Of a DNA stretch of 64,000 bases, positions 31,715-41,648 are shown piece by piece. The translations under genes were made by a program, and so were the position numbers. Each line of letters starts with the position of its first letter. The stretch's first letter is position 1. The stretch is from contig NW_006767436.1 of the NCBI RefSeq assembly GCF_000264995.1, positions 2,541,519-2,605,518 on the forward strand. Reading direction: 5' to 3'. Origin of the DNA: Punctularia strigosozonata HHB-11173 SS5 (Eukaryota > Basidiomycota > Agaricomycetes > Corticiales > Punctulariaceae). The notes beneath the pieces were generated by a model that saw only the letters and a list, made by a program, of their open reading frames with translations, was not told the origin of the DNA and ran no database searches.

Positions 31715-32741
31715 GATGGCCAGGGAGTTGCACGCTGGAGGTTTAAAGTGCGTCCAGCCTCGCTTATGAACGTTCATTCAGAGACGAGGGAAGATGTGGA
31801 AAAGTGTTGGCGGAAAGTCGGTCCGTGATGTTTGGCATGCATCCAGCGTCAACGGTTGAATGGAAAGAATTTGGGTGGATTATGCGTGATGACACCAGCC
31901 AGATCTCCTAGTGAATGTACCATCTCCAAACGTACAAGGTGTAGCTTCCGACAAAGCGAGGATCTCCCGATTCATAGTCAGATCACCGGACTCACCAAGC
32001 TATAATCGTCAAAATGTGATGTCAGAAGCCAGCGTTGGAATTCAATGCTCAAAGGAAGCCGCTGCGGCGTATGACAGAGACCTCCGACGAAGGCGAGACA
32101 ATTCCGAAGTCGTGGAGAATGGACGACCTCAGCACGAGCAGGGGCCCGGTACGCTGGATGCATGATATTGCCTTGAGTATTCTTGCAATTTAGAGAGAGA
32201 AGCCGTATGTTGAATACGCAGATAAGGCGTACAGGGAGTGTTGTCTGCCTACGTGCTCTGTGCGATTGCAAGCCGTATACATGGTAAGTTGGATTCGTGC
32301 GAGGCGGCATGCGGACTTGCAATTGGCTAAGGTTGAGCTCGCCGGATCAGCGTCGGGCCGCCTCAGGGTGGGCCTGTGCAACATCGAGGTGCGGCATCGC
32401 GCTTCGTGTCGGCCACTGTCGGCCAGCTCTTGACGGCGATAGATTACATGCTCTTGTCAAAGTAATACGGACAACTCTAGAAACAACAATACTTCAGTGC
32501 GGATATGAGATATTCTTTCCATCGTGCTCTGCGCATGTGAATCTATCATGCGTCGTGTACGGACAGGCGATCCTGCTGGTGACGGCGCCGATGGGCCGAG
32601 TGTCTTCTAATTCCGAATGAGAGTACGTCTGATAAATCGCACTTGCCTATCTTTTGCTCAGCCGTATCGAGGAGGTGTCCGACCCTCCGTAGTACTTCAC
32701 TACAGCAACACAGGGAGAAGCTGGGTAGTGCGACTGGCAAG
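31715..32741. other. Divergent promoter region
   Basis: 1.03 kb between the divergent AA9 and transporter genes. I found no conserved coding segment. It probably holds the regulated promoter of the LPMO gene. No named regulatory site was assigned with confidence. Confidence 0.4.
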
Positions 32742-34856
32742 ATGGCGACTGCAGGCTTCTTGATCTACAGCGGGATTATGCCTCTTCTCAAAATGTGCGT
32801 CTCGAGGACTGCGATATGTCATGGAAATACTAAACAGTCTCACAGGTTCCTCACCATCTTCTTCGGCTATGTGCTCGCAAAGAGGGATCTCTTTCCTCCC
32901 GCAGCAACACGGGGGGCCTCGCAAGTCACCATGAATGTATCCTTGCCCGCTCTCATCTTCGCGAATATCGTTCCTGCATTCACGCCTCAGAATGTCTCCG
33001 CCATTGGACCACTTATGCTCATAGCATTCATCTACGTGCTCATCGGTTTCACCTTCGGACTGTTAATCAGAGAGGTGTGCTACGTTCCGCGAAATTTCTG
33101 GCAAGGCATAGTCGTTCTATGCGGGCTTAGCAACTGGGGGAACTTGCGTCAGTCCGTGCATCATCCGATCGTTCCAGCTTCCCTGACGTAGTCGTGCAGC
33201 GAACGCAGTGGTGACGACAGTCACTCAGCAAAAACCTTTCAACGGCGATTCGGATTCCGCGCGTGAGTACACCGATTTCATCAAGGCGGCACTTACACTT
33301 AGCCCCGAGTTCGCAGTGGGCGTATCTTACGTGGCGATATTCATCGTCTGTTATCATATATGCTTTTGGGTTTTCGGCGCAGCCGCTTCGCTCGCGTGGG
33401 ATTACAGGTAAACAAAAAACGCAGCATATCTATGTCAGTATCATTGCTCAATACGATATCCCAGACCGGCAGTTCCTCAGGGCAGATATGCAGAAGTCCG
33501 AATCGCCTGGGATCAGAAGCCCATAGGTGGATGGATTGCACGATATCTTCTGCGCCGGCGGCCCCTTCCCCTTCCTTTCCGTCCGGTTTCCCCAACCCGC
33601 AGGGAGGAGAAGGAGAAAGGCCCCGCTCCGGAAGATCGAGATGTAGAGCAAGCTGAACTGGGCGATGTTGTAGAAGTCGAGCCGGAACCATGTAATTCCG
33701 CGATTGCAGACGACAACGATCCTGACATCAAGCTGGCTCGCCAAGTGTCCCACCTCTCCACGCCCTCATTCCGGTCACGCCGAGCATCGGCCGCATGGCC
33801 GTCCTCGTCAAGGCCTCATGTCCATACCCAGGCGCCCCAGCAGCAGTCTTTGCCTGCGGAAACCGTCTGTCCCGAGGACCTTCCTGGTGATGACCGATCA
33901 TCGGCGTCCTCCTCCACATGCAGTTCAGCTTTTGGTCCAATACTCAAAGCTATTGCCCCGCTACGGGTGGTCATCACGCCCATTACGTTGACAATCGCGA
34001 TCTCGCTGCCAATTGCCTTGATCACGCCCCTCAAAGCGCTATTTGTTGACGTCTCTGCCATAAGCGACAAATACAGTAGTGGCAGTTGGCGTGGGCCCGA
34101 TGGAAAGCCCGTGCTCAACTTTGTCATTGACACAGGTAGGAGTATCATTGCAGCAACGATCGCTCTGTTGAACTCACGAACCTTCAGCATCTTTCCTAGG
34201 TTCCATAACCATTCCAATGGCTCTGGTATTACTCGGCGCGTCTTTTGCAAGACTGCGTCTATCGCGTCCCGTTTCACGACTACCCATCGTAGCCATGTTT
34301 GCGGTGGCCGGTGCGAAGTTATTCGTGCTTCCGGTGATCGGTGCGCCACTCTTTTCTGCGATGCTGGCCTGCATCCCTTAGTACGTTCACAGGCGTCTTC
34401 ATCGTGCAAGCAATGGTCCGCCGCGGACTCATCGCTGAAGATGCCAAGGTTGAGCGATTCGTAGCAACATTCCTGAGTGGAACTCCAGCCGCCGTCAAGT
34501 AAGCCGCTCGTTCTCACTTCTTGGCGCATGATCTAACTTCGTCGCGGTGAAGCCAACTCATTGTATCGCAACTATATTCCCCAGATGGGAACGTTGACAC
34601 GTTATCGGTCAGTAGCTTCCGCTTCCGCTCAGAAGGTTTTCTGAAACTGACAGTTAATTGCTACCTCTCAGGCATTCCTTCTCGTGCAATGTACGCACCT
34701 TTCGGAAAGGATCTGTCACAGTTGCTGATATCGACAATAGATGCATTGATGTTCTTTTCATCCTCGTGAGTTTTTCATACTCTCCATCTCGACCCTTCGG
34801 CCACCTTCTCAGCGTTTTTCAGAGCTTTGACTGCTGTATCGCTTTTGCTGCTCTGA
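32742..34856 (+). CDS. Auxin-efflux-carrier (PIN-like) family transporter
   Basis: Ten exons (32742-32794, 32846-33147, 33200-33407, 33465-34135, 34188-34340, 34393-34498, 34553-34607, 34672-34690, 34741-34765, 34823-34856) encode 541 aa. The first five helices include VTMNVSLPALIFANIVPAF and IVVLCGLSNWGNLPNAVVTT, the conserved crossover of the membrane transport (Mem_trans) family. A long hydrophilic loop of about 180 residues with Ser/Gln-rich stretches follows. The second helix bundle then has ITPITLTIAISLPIALITPL, FLGSITIPMALVLLGASFA and the C-terminal AFLLVQYALMFFSSS. Fungal members are ER or plasma-membrane carriers of uncertain substrate. Exons 8-10 are 19, 25 and 34 nt. Several introns lack in-frame stops, so splice choices rest on family conservation. 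Confidence 0.9.
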
Positions 34857-35081: not shown

Positions 35082-37390
35082 TCATTTTCCCAAGCTGGAT
35101 CGAATGACGTTCTGCAGCGAATATCCATCGTCCTGCCAACAGGGTCAACTGCGTAGAGGAAGCAGGCACGGATTGATGCGTACCTGGTCCATGGACCACG
35201 TAAAACAGCCGGCCATACCAGAAGACTTCGCATATGCCGCCTTGTCTGCGAGCGAATATGTATCGTCGTAGGTGACGACAGTGGACCTCGACGTGTTGAA
35301 GAGGAACTGTCCGAGGAAGGTTAGTGTTGTATGATGTGGCAAGAAAACGGTCGTACGTACAGGTGTATCCGAGCAGTCATCCCAACCTGATTAAAGTGGG
35401 TCAGTGAAACGTTGTTTTAACTCGGTATAGCGTTCACGCCCGTACCCTCGGTATAACCATTGGCTTGCACATAGACACTACCGCTCTTCTTCAGTGCACC
35501 TAGGGCTATTATCTGGTTGAAAGCGATTTGTTGACCTGAAAAACCGTCGTGAAACTGTTCAGACAATGTACCGTTCGCACACAAGCAAGACTGACCGAAG
35601 TATGAACTGAGGTCACCGGCGGCAGCTTCGGCGTGTATCGTGGTAGATGGACGCGCCCGCTCGTGTTTGTTGTTCAAGAAGACGGGCTCTTCCCCAGGAA
35701 CAACCGCCGTCGGCTCTTTGGACGCGGCAGGTAAGGGGCATGCAGGAACGCGTGCTTGATGGATCGAAGGCACAAAACCCGCAGGAGGCATAGCTATCTT
35801 GGTCAATGTGGTCTTGGTACTCTTGCTCACGTATCTAAGAGATACGTCAATAACGTTCACAGCCGCGACCTGGCCCAGACTCACCCATACAACGGAAGGC
35901 CGAGGAGAAGTTTGTTAGCGGGCATCTTCGCTTTTGTCCATGCAGCGAACGCCGCTTGAGCGGACGCTTGGGGTTGCGTTGCATTTCCGCAAAGGTTTCC
36001 GAGCGGCGCATTCGGACCCGGAGTAGCCGAGGCGCCCCACACGTCGTAGTTCCTAACAGACGTGAGGTTCTGACGATGACTACAATTATCTTGTTAACTC
36101 ACATTATATTCACGTATGTCATTTGAGCAGCGTAAGCGCTGACGTCTGTAAGGGGACTGCCATTCGATCCCAACCACGGCTGTTGGGTCACGGCGGCGGA
36201 GATGATCTGCATATATTGCTTGGATCGATGCTATCAGCTGCGGATAGGAAGGGGAAATACCTTGGAGGAACCAAGGGCGGTGCGTAACGACTTGAAGAAG
36301 CTCAGTAGGTTGGCAGAGTCGGAAGACGAGAATGGGTTGCCGGCGCCCGAAGAGTTGGGATACTCCCAATCGATATCGATACCTAATATCCAAAGCAAGG
36401 ATCAAGACACAATAATGCATCGTTCGGACTAGAAACTGACCAGCCAAGCCATAAGTGTTAACGGCGCTCACGGCCGCATTCACGAATTTCGTTCGGTTTG
36501 CGGATGTCGACATGGCCTGCGAGAAGTAGTACGAGCCACCCCACCCCCCTGAAACCCACATGTTAGTTCATCCACAACGCCATTAATATCAGATCGCATG
36601 CACGTACCGATGCTCAAGACGATCTTTGTGCCCTTTCCACTGCTGTTCGCCGCGCTCACCAGGCGCTTCAGGGTGCCGGTAGCTCCATCGTCCCAGGAGA
36701 TGGTAGAGGAAGAGTTGGGTGTCGCAAACGCTATGTGGTTACCGTTAGCCTCGTGTGCACGGGGTACCAGGGCCGACAGGTGGCCAAGACGTACCGAAGA
36801 AGAGGATGTCGAACTTGGAGAAGTCGATGCTCTCCGGCGCAAGAGTGTCGGCGGCCCAGTCGGGGTAATAGGAAGCAGCAATCAAGCTAGACGCCGCCGC
36901 TTGAACTTCGCCCTGAGCCTCTTTGAGAGAAAGGGCGGTCTTGCGGGACAAAGTAGACGGTAAGGCATCTTCGGGATGCAGTGCAGGACGCTTGGACGAC
37001 GTAGTTGGAGGAGAAAGAAACGCATCCAGAAGAGGAGAACTGGTCTTGGAAGATATGAGGTCAGATAGGTACAGTCCTAGGCCTGACTTGCGCTCTGAGA
37101 TGAGCGCGTCGTCAACCCAAGCGGATGGGACAAAGTGGGTGGCCAGAATGCGCTTGGGCGGAAGGCGATGCGGATCACCAAGAGCTTCGTGAAGCGCGAC
37201 AAACTGGGGGTCATACGTACATGAGACGACAGCAACGACATGCGCGGAAGAGACTCACTTCAGAGTATCGTTTGTGAAGTTCATAGCTCGTGCCGTCCTC
37301 GCGTTTGACCGCGATAGTGTAAACCACATGCGGCCTTGGGCTGGAGGAAGTCGTGTGACCAACAACCGAGACGTTCTTGATGTCGGCCAT
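35082..37390 (-). CDS. PX domain fused to GH18 chitinase-like domain
   Basis: Twelve exons (37390-37259, 37203-36795, 36730-36608, 36548-36441, 36382-36261, 36206-36103, 36052-35885, 35834-35596, 35535-35446, 35386-35361, 35306-35184, 35132-35082) give 564 aa. Residues 1 to about 110 read as a PX phosphoinositide-binding domain (HVVYTIAVKREDG, KRYSEFVALHEAL, LPPKRIL). After a linker the GH18 barrel begins IAASYYPDW, with KIVLSIGGWGGS, catalytic GIDIDWEYP (acid Glu264), MTYVNIMNYDVWG, LLLGLPLYG and MAGCFTWSMDQ. One exon (37203-36795) carries the end of PX and the start of GH18 in one frame with no Met between them. No signal peptide is visible. The first Asp of the usual DGxDxDxE motif is Ala here. 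A Ser/Pro-rich insert of about 70 residues sits in the barrel. An upstream in-frame ATG is at 37477. Confidence 0.85.
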
Positions 37391-39346
37391 GTTTTCTGTC
37401 GCGGTCTGAGAGACGGGACAAGCAGATGAACCAGACTTTAAGTACAAGGGCGTCGCTGTGGCGATCGCCGGCGCCACCTGTGAGCTAGACCAGAGCGGAA
37501 GCCGCGGACGGAGGGCCTATCGTCGTCCCGCGGCGTGACAAGTCTGGCCAACAGGCCCGGAAACATCGTCATGAGTTTCGGCTGCCACATGGGGTTCGAG
37601 AACGCATGGACAGAGACATGGCCTCCTCCCCTATGCGTCGACCTCTGGATCGTGTACTCCGTCCTTCCGCTGCACGTGTTGGTTACCGCTGATATCCGGA
37701 GGTTCCGGTGTGAGCAGTTGTCTCGGTTTCTGAACGGCATAGGCTATATGAAGCCTTAGGAAGCGTATTCCAAGCCTATCACCTGAGTCCGAAGGCTTCT
37801 TGAGATTGACCGGAACCCTACGTCACGGTAAAACAAGGAGGACCGGTCAATCATTTGCTCCAGTGCTCCAAGACGTCAATCAAAATACATTGGCGCTCGT
37901 GGAATAGAGTCGCAAGTTGAGGCCAAGAGCAGCTGTCGCGGGACAGTCTGTTCACGACGTTGACACGGATCGTCGATGGCGCATGGGTCAACTGGATCAG
38001 CAGTCGAAATGAACCGTGCGCGGGATGACGATGGCTATGACAGTAAGCCCAGACAGTCGAACAGCGTTATCGAGCCGCGGTCGGTCAGACATGTCAAGGA
38101 CAGCAAGTTCGGATACTCCGAGCCTGCGTGCGGAGATCAGCTTCCGGTCGGTATGGAAGAGAGCAGTGTGGGAGAAATCTAAGTACAAACGCCGGTCACT
38201 ATATATCTTATCTTCCCGGACGCCTCCTGTTTATGTGCTCATGATCAAATCCCGGTCCATACACCTGAATAGGTCCAAGCCTCCGTTCTAACAGGTTTCC
38301 GGCGGAGAAACCTGAATGTAGCATCGTCGCTCAGCGTCGCCAACCGACGATATGGTGGGCGCTGGCGCTGACTGCCCACATGGTGCCTTCAAATGGGCTT
38401 GACCAGCCACCTGTTTTCTCTAGGGCGAATCATCATATTCACCTCGTTGCATTACGGAGGGCGGGGTAAATATAAGGAGGCATGCCAACCTACTACGATG
38501 TGTATCTCTACTTGCACGCTCGATAACGCCTATGTCTTGCTGCCCACTACTGATGGGGCCCGCTGCACATGCTGTGCCCGGTTTCGAGATTGGGTATATG
38601 TGGCTGGTTGTTGCTGCCTATGCACGAGAGACGAACACACCTCGTGTAAGGGCGTCCGGACACCTTACTTCGAGTTTTTACTTGAACTCATCCGGACCAT
38701 CTACATCATCCCGTGCCGAAGCTTCCAAGTCCGACTCGGGATGTGAGGCCTTGTCCCGAGCGCTTGAATGTACTTCGGTATGGACATATCGCCGAGAGAC
38801 GGCCGCTTGCTAACTTCTGCCCAAGTTCGCGAGCTCGTGCTGAATGTACGATAGGTTTCATTCATAGCGCTGGCATGGTGGGACTGCAGCAACAGCGATA
38901 AGAATCGGGTGAATTATGTGTAAAGATGAATCGCACCGTCGCAAGTGCACATGCTGTCGCAATTGACTACTAGCTCGAGTAGCACTGGATGCTCCCAAGC
39001 GGGCCGATCTCAAGGAATCGAAAGCGATCATGAAGCGTAACGGTAAGTATTCGGATCGTGTGCAGAGCAGCTTCGTGAGTCCATCGATTTTTATACCCCT
39101 CGACGGGGGTGCGCAATCCATTACATCAGTAAGCACGAACGGCATCCAGGGAGATTGTTTCGGGTGCGCGCTGGATGATGATGTTGGTTTATGTACCTGA
39201 AGGTCAAGCTGAAGGTGGTTGGCCGTATCAGCAGCGCTCAAGTCATGCTTCCCACGATTATAATTTATGATCTGCAACAGTTTTCATCGATCCTGTGCAA
39301 AGCTCTACCCCGGGCCTGCTTGCTTTCCTCCTCATCGCCGTCAGCC
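37391..39346. other. Long intergenic region
   Basis: Nearly 2 kb between the divergent PX-GH18 and Arb1 genes. I read both strands and found no family-like frame, no splice-supported exon series, no tRNA and no obvious repeat. An AT-rich run (attataattt) at about 39257-39266 lies about 85 bp before the Arb1 ATG. Confidence 0.4.
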
Positions 39347-41648
39347 ATGGCACCCTCCGCATCCAAACAGAAGCGTCTTGCTGAGAAGGCTGCGAAAGGT
39401 GCCGCCAAGAGCAAAGGCAAGGGCACCGATGCGTCCTCCACCACCGACACCCCCACTGGCAGCACCAACGGCAGCACCGCCAGCACGCCGATGACCAGCT
39501 TGTCTGCAGCTACCAGCAAAGAAGATCTCAGCGCGATGGAGAAGCTGAGGATTGCCACAGATCGGTGTGTTATTTGTCTTGCAAACCTACATCGTCCCTT
39601 GTCCACGTCCTTGGACGATTGAATGCGTCTCATGTACGAGCTCACGCTGACGGACGTTGCTAATATACAGGAGCGCAGCCGGTGTGCTCGTATCCGATCC
39701 CAAGGGACGCGACATCAAGATCGACTCGTATACGCTGTCTTTCCATGGTCGGTTATTGATCGAGAATGCCGAGATTTCGTTTAACTACGGCAATCGTTAC
39801 GGATTACTGGGAGAAAATGGTTCGGGAAAGGTAAGCAAAGCTCTGATCTTTATGTGTTCATACCCAGCATCAGATAGCTCACTCATCATCACGCAGTCCA
39901 CTCTTCTGCAGTCCATCGCAGATCGCGACATTGAAATCCCCGACCACATCGACATCTACCTCGTGCGGGGAGAGGCAGAGCCCTCAGATGTCAACGCGCT
40001 CGATTTCATCGTTGCATCCGCGAGGGTAAGTAGTATCACCGAGCCAAGGCATCGTAGGTCGCCTAACATTGTCTTCCAGGAAAAAGTGGCCAAACTCGAA
40101 GCCCGCATAGAAGAACTCTCCATCGCAGATGACCCGGACGATGTCGCCCTCGATCAGGCCTATGAGGAGCTCGAAGAACTCGACCCCTCCACTTTCGAGA
40201 CTAAGGCCGGCTCCATCCTTCACGGTCTCGGCTTCACGCAGCAGATGATGCAAAAGCCTACCAAAGACATGTCCGGTGGTTGGCGTATGCGCGTCGCCCT
40301 TGCCCGAGCGTTGTTCATCAAGCCTCATTTGCTATTACTTGATGAGCCTACCAACCACTTGGATCTCGGTGCCGTCGTCTGGCTCGAGGCATACCTCAGC
40401 ACGTATAACCACATTCTCGTCATCACATCGCACTCCCAGGATTTCATGGATGAAGTCTGCACCAACATCATGGACCTGACCCCGAAGAAGAAGCTGGTGT
40501 ACTACGGTGGTAATTACTCGACTTACGTGAGAACGAAGTCCGAGAACGAGGTGAATCAGATGAAGGCGTACCAAAAACAACAAGACGAAATCGCGCACAT
40601 CAAGAAGTACGGTATTGAGGTTGATTCGTAGCTGGCCATGGCGCTGACGAGATCTCCAGGTTCATTGCGTCCGCCGGTACATACGCTAATCTCGTGAAAC
40701 AAGCCAAGTCCAAGCAGAAGATCATCGACAAGATGGAGGCGGACGGCCTTATCGAGAAGATCGAGAAGTCGCGCCAGCTCCGATTCCACTTTGAGGACAT
40801 CCACAAGCTGCCGCCTCCTATCCTGGCTTTCGACAACGTTGCGTTCTCCTACTCCGGCAAGAAGGAAGACTACCTGTATCAGAACCTGTCTTTCGGTATC
40901 GAGTGCGTATCTCTGTCTTTGTTGCGAACATATCGCTCATAATGTCTTTCAGTATGGACTCTCGTATCGCCATCCTCGGTGCCAACGGTACCGGCAAATC
41001 GACGCTCCTTCACCTTATCACCGGAGCTTTGCAACCCTGCGAAGGCACCGTTTCCCGGCACGTCTCCCTCAAACTTGCCAAGTACTCTCAGCATTCGGCG
41101 GACCAGCTACCATACGACAAGAGCCCGATTGAGTACTTCCAGGCCCTCTTTTCCCAGAAGTACCCGGAGAAGGACTTGCAAGCGTGGAGAGCGCAGCTTG
41201 GGCGATTTGGTCTTTCGGGCCAACATCAGACATCGCCGATTGCTCACCTTTCCGACGGTCTCCGGAACCGGTGAGTGTAATCCAGCGTCCCCGGACGAGC
41301 AGACGCTCACTCGCGTGCCCCAGTGTCGTGTTCGCACAGCTTGCCATGGAGCATCCCCACATTCTGTTATTGGATGAGCCGACGAACCACTTGGACATGG
41401 AATCCATCGACGCGCTTGCCGTCGCGATCAAGGAGTTCGAGGGTGGTGTGGTCATTGTATCGCACGACTTCCGACTCATCAGCCAGGTCGCCGAGGAACT
41501 GTGGGAGGTGAGGGACCGCAAGATCCGCAACCTCACGAAGGAGGACATCACCATCGTCGACTACAAGAAGTCGCTCATGAAACAGTCGGAGGCCGCGATC
41601 GAGAAGGCGAAGCTCATCAGCAAAAATATGGCGAAGGCCAAGACATAG
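39347..41648 (+). CDS. ARB1: ABC-F ATPase Arb1 (ABCF2 type)
   Basis: Seven exons (39347-39564, 39671-39830, 39897-40025, 40080-40606, 40660-40902, 40953-41270, 41324-41648) encode 639 aa. A Lys/Ala/Ser/Thr-rich N-terminus precedes two nucleotide-binding domains and no membrane domain. NBD1 has GENGSGKST at 120-128, [15 protein letters not shown] and [15 protein letters not shown]2 has GANGTGKST at about 435-443, [13 protein letters not shown] and [11 protein letters not shown]. The LSDGLRN signature in NBD2 is characteristic of Arb1/ABCF2. Arb1 shuttles between nucleus and cytoplasm and is required for 40S and 60S ribosome biogenesis. The first intron lies before the first conserved block; the second splits the Walker A motif after its Lys. 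This is a housekeeping gene with no sign of decay. Confidence 0.96.

Follow-up and report, generated by a model that had tools for sequence, protein, structure and literature searches.

A predicted leaderless GH18 chitinase-like protein with an N-terminal PX domain, encoded in what is most likely a white-rot Agaricomycete

The window analysed here, a 64,000-nucleotide stretch of genomic DNA, encodes a 564-residue protein that combines an N-terminal PX domain with a GH18 chitinase-like domain. As judged from the sequence, the residues we take to line the PI3P pocket of PX domains and the GH18 DxDxE core are both intact in this PX-GH18 protein, a point that is new here. The reading we tentatively prefer, at somewhat less than an even chance, is that of a leaderless GH18 protein tethered by its PX domain to PI3P-type membranes, which would get to the wall or septum through unconventional export or the breakdown of a compartment. 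The phosphoinositide tether is supported by the predicted domain content, and the route to the wall is suggested by analogy.

Read from the genomic sequence, the gene occupies the minus strand from 37390 to 35082 and comprises 12 exons with an uninterrupted frame. Its coordinates, the limits of exon 2 and the protein length are as given in the initial annotation. Introns measure 50-64 nt; ten of the eleven show GT and AG ends, and the donor of the eleventh reads GTACGG. The exons are as follows.

Exon 1, 37259-37390, minus strand: start codon and residues 1-44, the N-terminal half of PX, ending in RYSE; donor GTGAGT, phase 0; aligns with the PX of a Vam7 homologue.
Exon 2, 36795-37203, minus strand: C-terminal half of PX, linker (approximately residues 109-152) and first GH18 barrel strand in a single open frame.
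Exon 3, 36608-36730, minus strand: GH18; the exon end falls within the SxGG motif, with S220 here.
Exon 4, 36441-36548, minus strand: GH18; terminates at GLA, ahead of the catalytic motif.
Exon 5, 36261-36382, minus strand: GH18 catalytic motif GIDIDWEYP (D260, D262, E264).
Exon 6, 36103-36206, minus strand: GH18.
Exon 7, 35885-36052, minus strand: GH18; NYDVWG (Y335, D336) and C354.
Exon 8, 35596-35834, minus strand: GH18; carries an extended loop relative to paralogue L009.
Exon 9, 35446-35535, minus strand: GH18.
Exon 10, 35361-35386, minus strand: GH18; C503.
Exon 11, 35184-35306, minus strand: GH18; FTWSMD, the last barrel strand (W544).
Exon 12, 35082-35132, minus strand: C-terminus and stop.

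A Pfam search with the whole protein assigned GH18 (PF00704) to residues 155-549 (194 bits, E 6.5e-57, profile positions 4-317 of 317) and PX (PF00787) to residues 33-108 (24.9 bits against a cut-off of 21.6, E 3e-5), the two being separated by a linker of ~44 residues. The initial annotation had staked its PX call on such a profile search, and the domain passes. The call depends on the splice, since the single frames around exons 1 and 2 fall short of the cut-off: the unspliced frame around exon 2 (36745-37254) reaches 13.2 bits, and that around exon 1 (37211-37516) returned no Pfam family. Exon 1 gains independent support from the Vam7 homologue L005, which aligns over residues 4-97. The spliced model and Pfam together confirm that exon 2 encodes, in one frame, both the final part of PX and the strand that opens the GH18 barrel. 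At third codon positions, GC stands at 0.574 for PX, 0.523 for the linker and 0.648 for GH18; the intron value, 0.490, is taken over all positions, so the comparison is not a strong coding test.

No methionine separates the two domains, as had been claimed. Met residues fall at positions 1, 234, 327, 333, 376, 404, 538 and 546, with none from 2 to 233, so translation from an internal start could not yield the whole barrel. The absence of a signal peptide also holds as far as hydropathy and a leader-exon scan can tell, neither of which made a hydrophobic leader visible. Specifically, the 8-residue hydropathy of the first 30 residues, a crude measure, is 1.71, compared with 3.09, 2.73 and 3.04 in paralogues L009, L011 and L013. 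The scan required an ATG from 39400 to 37210, an 8-residue hydropathy of 2.2 or more and a GT[AG]NG donor, joined to any AG from 37203 to 36930. It returned no leader-exon candidate for the GH18 part within that range, which stops short of the barrel start near 36880, and it had no positive control. By these two measures, the protein shares with Cts1-type chitinases the trait of a GH18 domain that lacks a signal peptide. A misjoin of a PX gene to a normal secreted chitinase with a missed leader exon would fit the modest, splice-dependent PX score and the other GH18 genes of the genome, of which six of seven look leader- or anchor-bearing by eye. However, exon 2 crosses the joint in one frame, PX extends over exons 1 and 2, the stretch ahead of residue 234 offers no alternative Met, the scan yielded no candidate, and the same PX-chitinase pairing is reported in other fungi in the available text of PMC8097845. 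The bridging exon and the scan, empty over the range it covered, lead us to disfavour a false joining of two genes or an overlooked leader exon, which we regard as very improbable.

The genome searched spans 33.6 Mb in 32 contigs and contains 18 GH18 matches, grouped by position into at least eight genes. The six whose N-termini appear by eye to carry a leader or anchor are L009, L011, L013, L012, L017 and, with an anchor, L010; the seventh of the other GH18 genes is L018. At L010 (C3:2057298-2061263), the upstream frame reads by eye as a polar stretch with a single hydrophobic segment after it, so the product may be a chitinase anchored in the membrane as a type II protein. PX was found for one of the eight GH18 genes, that of the window, and the ten PX matches of the genome coincide with no GH18 locus; the intron-split PX of the window gene is missing from that ten-match list and was recovered by protein search. 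The class II peroxidase extension family gave 11 matches. The best of them, L030, has as its closest relative manganese peroxidase 1mnp (511.7 bits), which we take to be the enzyme from Phanerochaete chrysosporium. Class II peroxidases mark white-rot Agaricomycetes, and by this gene content the genome is most likely that of a white-rot Agaricomycete.

The gene maps to 2576600-2578908 of the 2607555 positions of contig C4, ~29 kb from the contig end and perhaps near a chromosome end. Its convergent downstream neighbour (32583-33188, plus strand) matches the Mem_trans transporter family (PF03547; 48 bits for the first piece), and a further plus-strand frame at 33412-34461 gave no Pfam family. 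On the other side, a plus-strand frame at 39651-40628 has ABC_tran and ABC_tran_Xtn matches; its product is presumably an ABC-F-like ATPase.

A protein search of residues 1-124 against the whole genome (E up to 1, best candidates scored) recovered, apart from its own gene, a single further locus, L005/L029, which matches at 40% over residues 3-98 (E 9.2e-11). In the alignment with L005 (36% over 100 columns), the PX domain is N-terminal in both proteins. Two matches identify the L005 protein as a Vam7 homologue, one to the PX domain of yeast Vam7 (1kmd, E 1e-9) and one, from its C-terminus, to the SNARE chain 1gl2 of syntaxin 8 (E 9.4e-7); Pfam gives PX only, with no SNARE family at the C-terminus. 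It differs from the window protein in having a SNARE-like C-terminus and no enzyme domain. When the window PX was compared with seven PX fragments of the genome (seven of the ten matches, the omitted ones being L008, which is short, and two that had no loci), the Vam7 homologue scored 61.2 bits against 30.8 for the best of the other six, its fragment being the longest, which favours its score. By these comparisons, the Vam7 homologue supplies the closest PX found elsewhere in this genome, and this point too is new here.

Among solved structures, a designed CISK-PX gives the best match to the window PX (E 1.2e-5), followed by p47phox (E 3.8e-4), and yeast Vam7 itself matches weakly (E 0.57), so a PI3P preference is not secure. 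The putative phosphoinositide-pocket residues R41, Y42, K61 and R82 are all present, and the alignment places the same residues in the Vam7 homologue. We take them, from the p40phox and SNX3 PX-PI3P structures, to be the Arg-Tyr of RYxxF, the Lys after PP and the Arg of the following helix.

The GH18 part retains S220, D260, D262, E264, Y335, D336 and W544, which we assume to be the active-site positions of the family, with D260, D262 and E264 forming the DxDxE core. The first Asp of the longer DxxDxDxE motif is replaced by Ala257, the paralogues L009, L011 and L013 having Asp here. We considered whether Ala257 marks a dead enzyme and rejected this, as Ala also occupies the position in 60 of 80 bacterial relatives, the best of 582 relatives (Asp in 16, Ser in 2, Leu in 2), with DxDxE intact; in view of that count, the first Asp does not define the family. 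These relatives were drawn from a pattern scan of genome contigs, and all 80 cover the motif. DxDxE is present in 80 of 80, a conservation that is partly built in because the seeds included DIDWEYPN. As to a PX-GH18 fusion outside fungi, none of the matches among the best 80 of 582 relatives starts before residue 95, and that of L068 starts exactly there, within the PX end. Viral contigs yielded no relatives (four pattern matches, none confirmed).

The intact core bears on a pseudo-chitinase or lectin that would stay permanently in the cytosol, bound to endosome or vacuole, where it would bind chito-oligosaccharides or free glycans and signal wall damage or contact with a competitor without hydrolysis. 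A protein with no visible leader suits this reading, as do the PX chitinases described in the available text of PMC8097845, one of which, from P. chrysosporium, is expressed but inactive and another, from Ganoderma boninense, is up-regulated with oil palm. Set against these are the intact DxDxE and other active-site residues of the window protein and the commonness of Ala257 among the bacterial relatives, and we consider the reading unlikely. The initial annotation had suggested an endomembrane-bound, cytosol-facing enzyme or a lectin-like sensor. The fusion, the missing leader and a plausible tether on the cytosolic face stand. A sensor is conceivable given the inactivity reported for the P. 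chrysosporium PX chitinase (PMC8097845, as far as its available text goes), but, with DxDxE intact, the PX-GH18 sequence lends no support to lost catalysis.

The best solved relatives of the GH18 part are the chitinases 5gzu/5gzt, together with the fungal 5xwf from Rhizomucor miehei, which is the best fungal GH18 among the seven solved sequences listed (176.7 bits). The solved Rhizomucor chain has 378 residues, and its residues 7-364 are matched by the GH18 part only. In exon 8 (35596-35834), the GH18 loop after GLPLYG exceeds in length those of L009 and the Rhizomucor chitinase. A weak likeness to endoglycosidase profiles (12.6 bits and E 0.11 for the EndoS barrel, cut-off 27; 26.7 bits for the NCBIfam EndoH model, cut-off 300) and a Vam7-like PX, which suits a vacuolar site, would fit an enzyme of the cytosol or endosomes that hydrolyses free glycans or chito-oligosaccharides, such as one resembling endo-beta-N-acetylglucosaminidase that recycles glycans or wall fragments at the vacuole. 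However, both scores lie under their cut-offs and the fold is common to the two kinds of enzyme; the NCBIfam ChiD chitinase model is the better match (97.8 bits, though far short of the 750 it demands), and the closest proteins of known structure carry the name chitinase. This role seems doubtful.

Two cysteines of the GH18 part, C354 and C503, each align with a cysteine in all three paralogues aligned, and both are missing from the Rhizomucor 5xwf segments compared. From this joint retention and loss, we infer that they may form a disulphide. A cysteine pair kept from secreted relatives could fit an eventual oxidising environment, or could be mere inheritance from the secreted paralogues.

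According to the tethered, leaderless reading that we prefer, the GH18 glycoside hydrolase would be made in the cytosol, and the N-terminal PX would hold it to PI3P-type membranes, whether endosomal, vacuolar or septum-associated, on their cytosolic side. Contact with chitin would most likely follow only once the protein had left the cytosol, either exported unconventionally at septa or hyphal tips or released as a hyphal compartment broke down. The PI3P preference, the membrane site and the enzymatic competence of the protein are all features that we infer. Delivery to septa or tips and unconventional export are suggested by Cts1 and Jps1 of Ustilago and by the PI3P endosomes at its septum, as these are described in the published excerpts; the export step is a guess from analogy and the weakest link of the proposal. 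A bolder form, which we hold to be rather improbable, is that white-rot fungi possess a self-targeting leaderless chitinase that would ride PI3P membranes to septa or tips for export independent of the ER, an in-cis solution that would have arisen independently of Ustilago Cts1 and Jps1, its PX having been taken from a Vam7-type vacuolar SNARE.

The closest known systems are other PX chitinases. The initial annotation had presented the PX-GH18 pairing as one that is not a described architecture, and this was wrong: the available text of PMC8097845 reports PX-carrying chitinases in G. boninense, where the gene is up-regulated during the interaction with oil palm, and in P. chrysosporium, so the architecture was already known and the same fusion, for which a search of related genomes had been advised, is in print for related fungi. 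As in the window protein, PX and chitinase are combined there in one protein of white-rot fungi. The P. chrysosporium protein (Karlsson, Stenlid and Lindahl 2016) is cited there as "expressed but chitinolytically inactive". This report counts against our proposal and poses a puzzle, since the window protein, likened to it by architecture as described in that source, retains an intact DxDxE and its other catalytic residues. Fungal GH18 subclade A-III has no enzymatically characterised members according to the part of PMC8042737 available, and five of ten P. chrysosporium GH18 genes are placed in A-III by the corresponding part of PMC2614207. For the window gene, the Rhizomucor chitinase as best fungal structural match is no more than suggestive of A-III membership. 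The terms "PX domain" and "phox" do not occur in the main text of PMC7358432, PMC8042737, PMC2614207, PMC5428031 or PMC10179651. The present gene is of value as a clean and testable example of a kind that has received little study.

Ustilago maydis offers the second comparison, which bears on the general question of how leaderless chitinases get to the wall. UmCts1 is secreted without a signal peptide (PMC10179651, in its available text), so that it and the window protein are both leaderless GH18 proteins; phosphoinositide binding is attributed to Cts1 and Jps1 and is predicted for the window PX. In the accessible portion of PMC12167484, Cts1 is described as binding PI(4,5)P2, as Jps1 does, and PI3P-containing early endosomes as collecting at the Ustilago septum. 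We do not claim the window protein as a Cts1 orthologue. It counts against our proposal that Cts1 and Jps1 prefer PI(4,5)P2 rather than PI3P and that the available text of PMC6386918 describes endosomal shuttling of Cts1 as unobserved; the same text names Cts2p as the yeast homologue of Cts1, and such orthology is doubtful. Ustilago needs a lipid-binding partner, whereas with a chitinase that itself bears a phosphoinositide-binding domain, a single gene is enough to test directly how membrane identity is linked to the delivery of chitinase. In Ustilago, the partner Jps1 is a distinct protein that binds PI(4,5)P2 without a canonical lipid-binding domain (PMC12167484, same portion), whereas the window protein carries a canonical PX in cis, and this PX would do in cis what Jps1 does in trans for Cts1.
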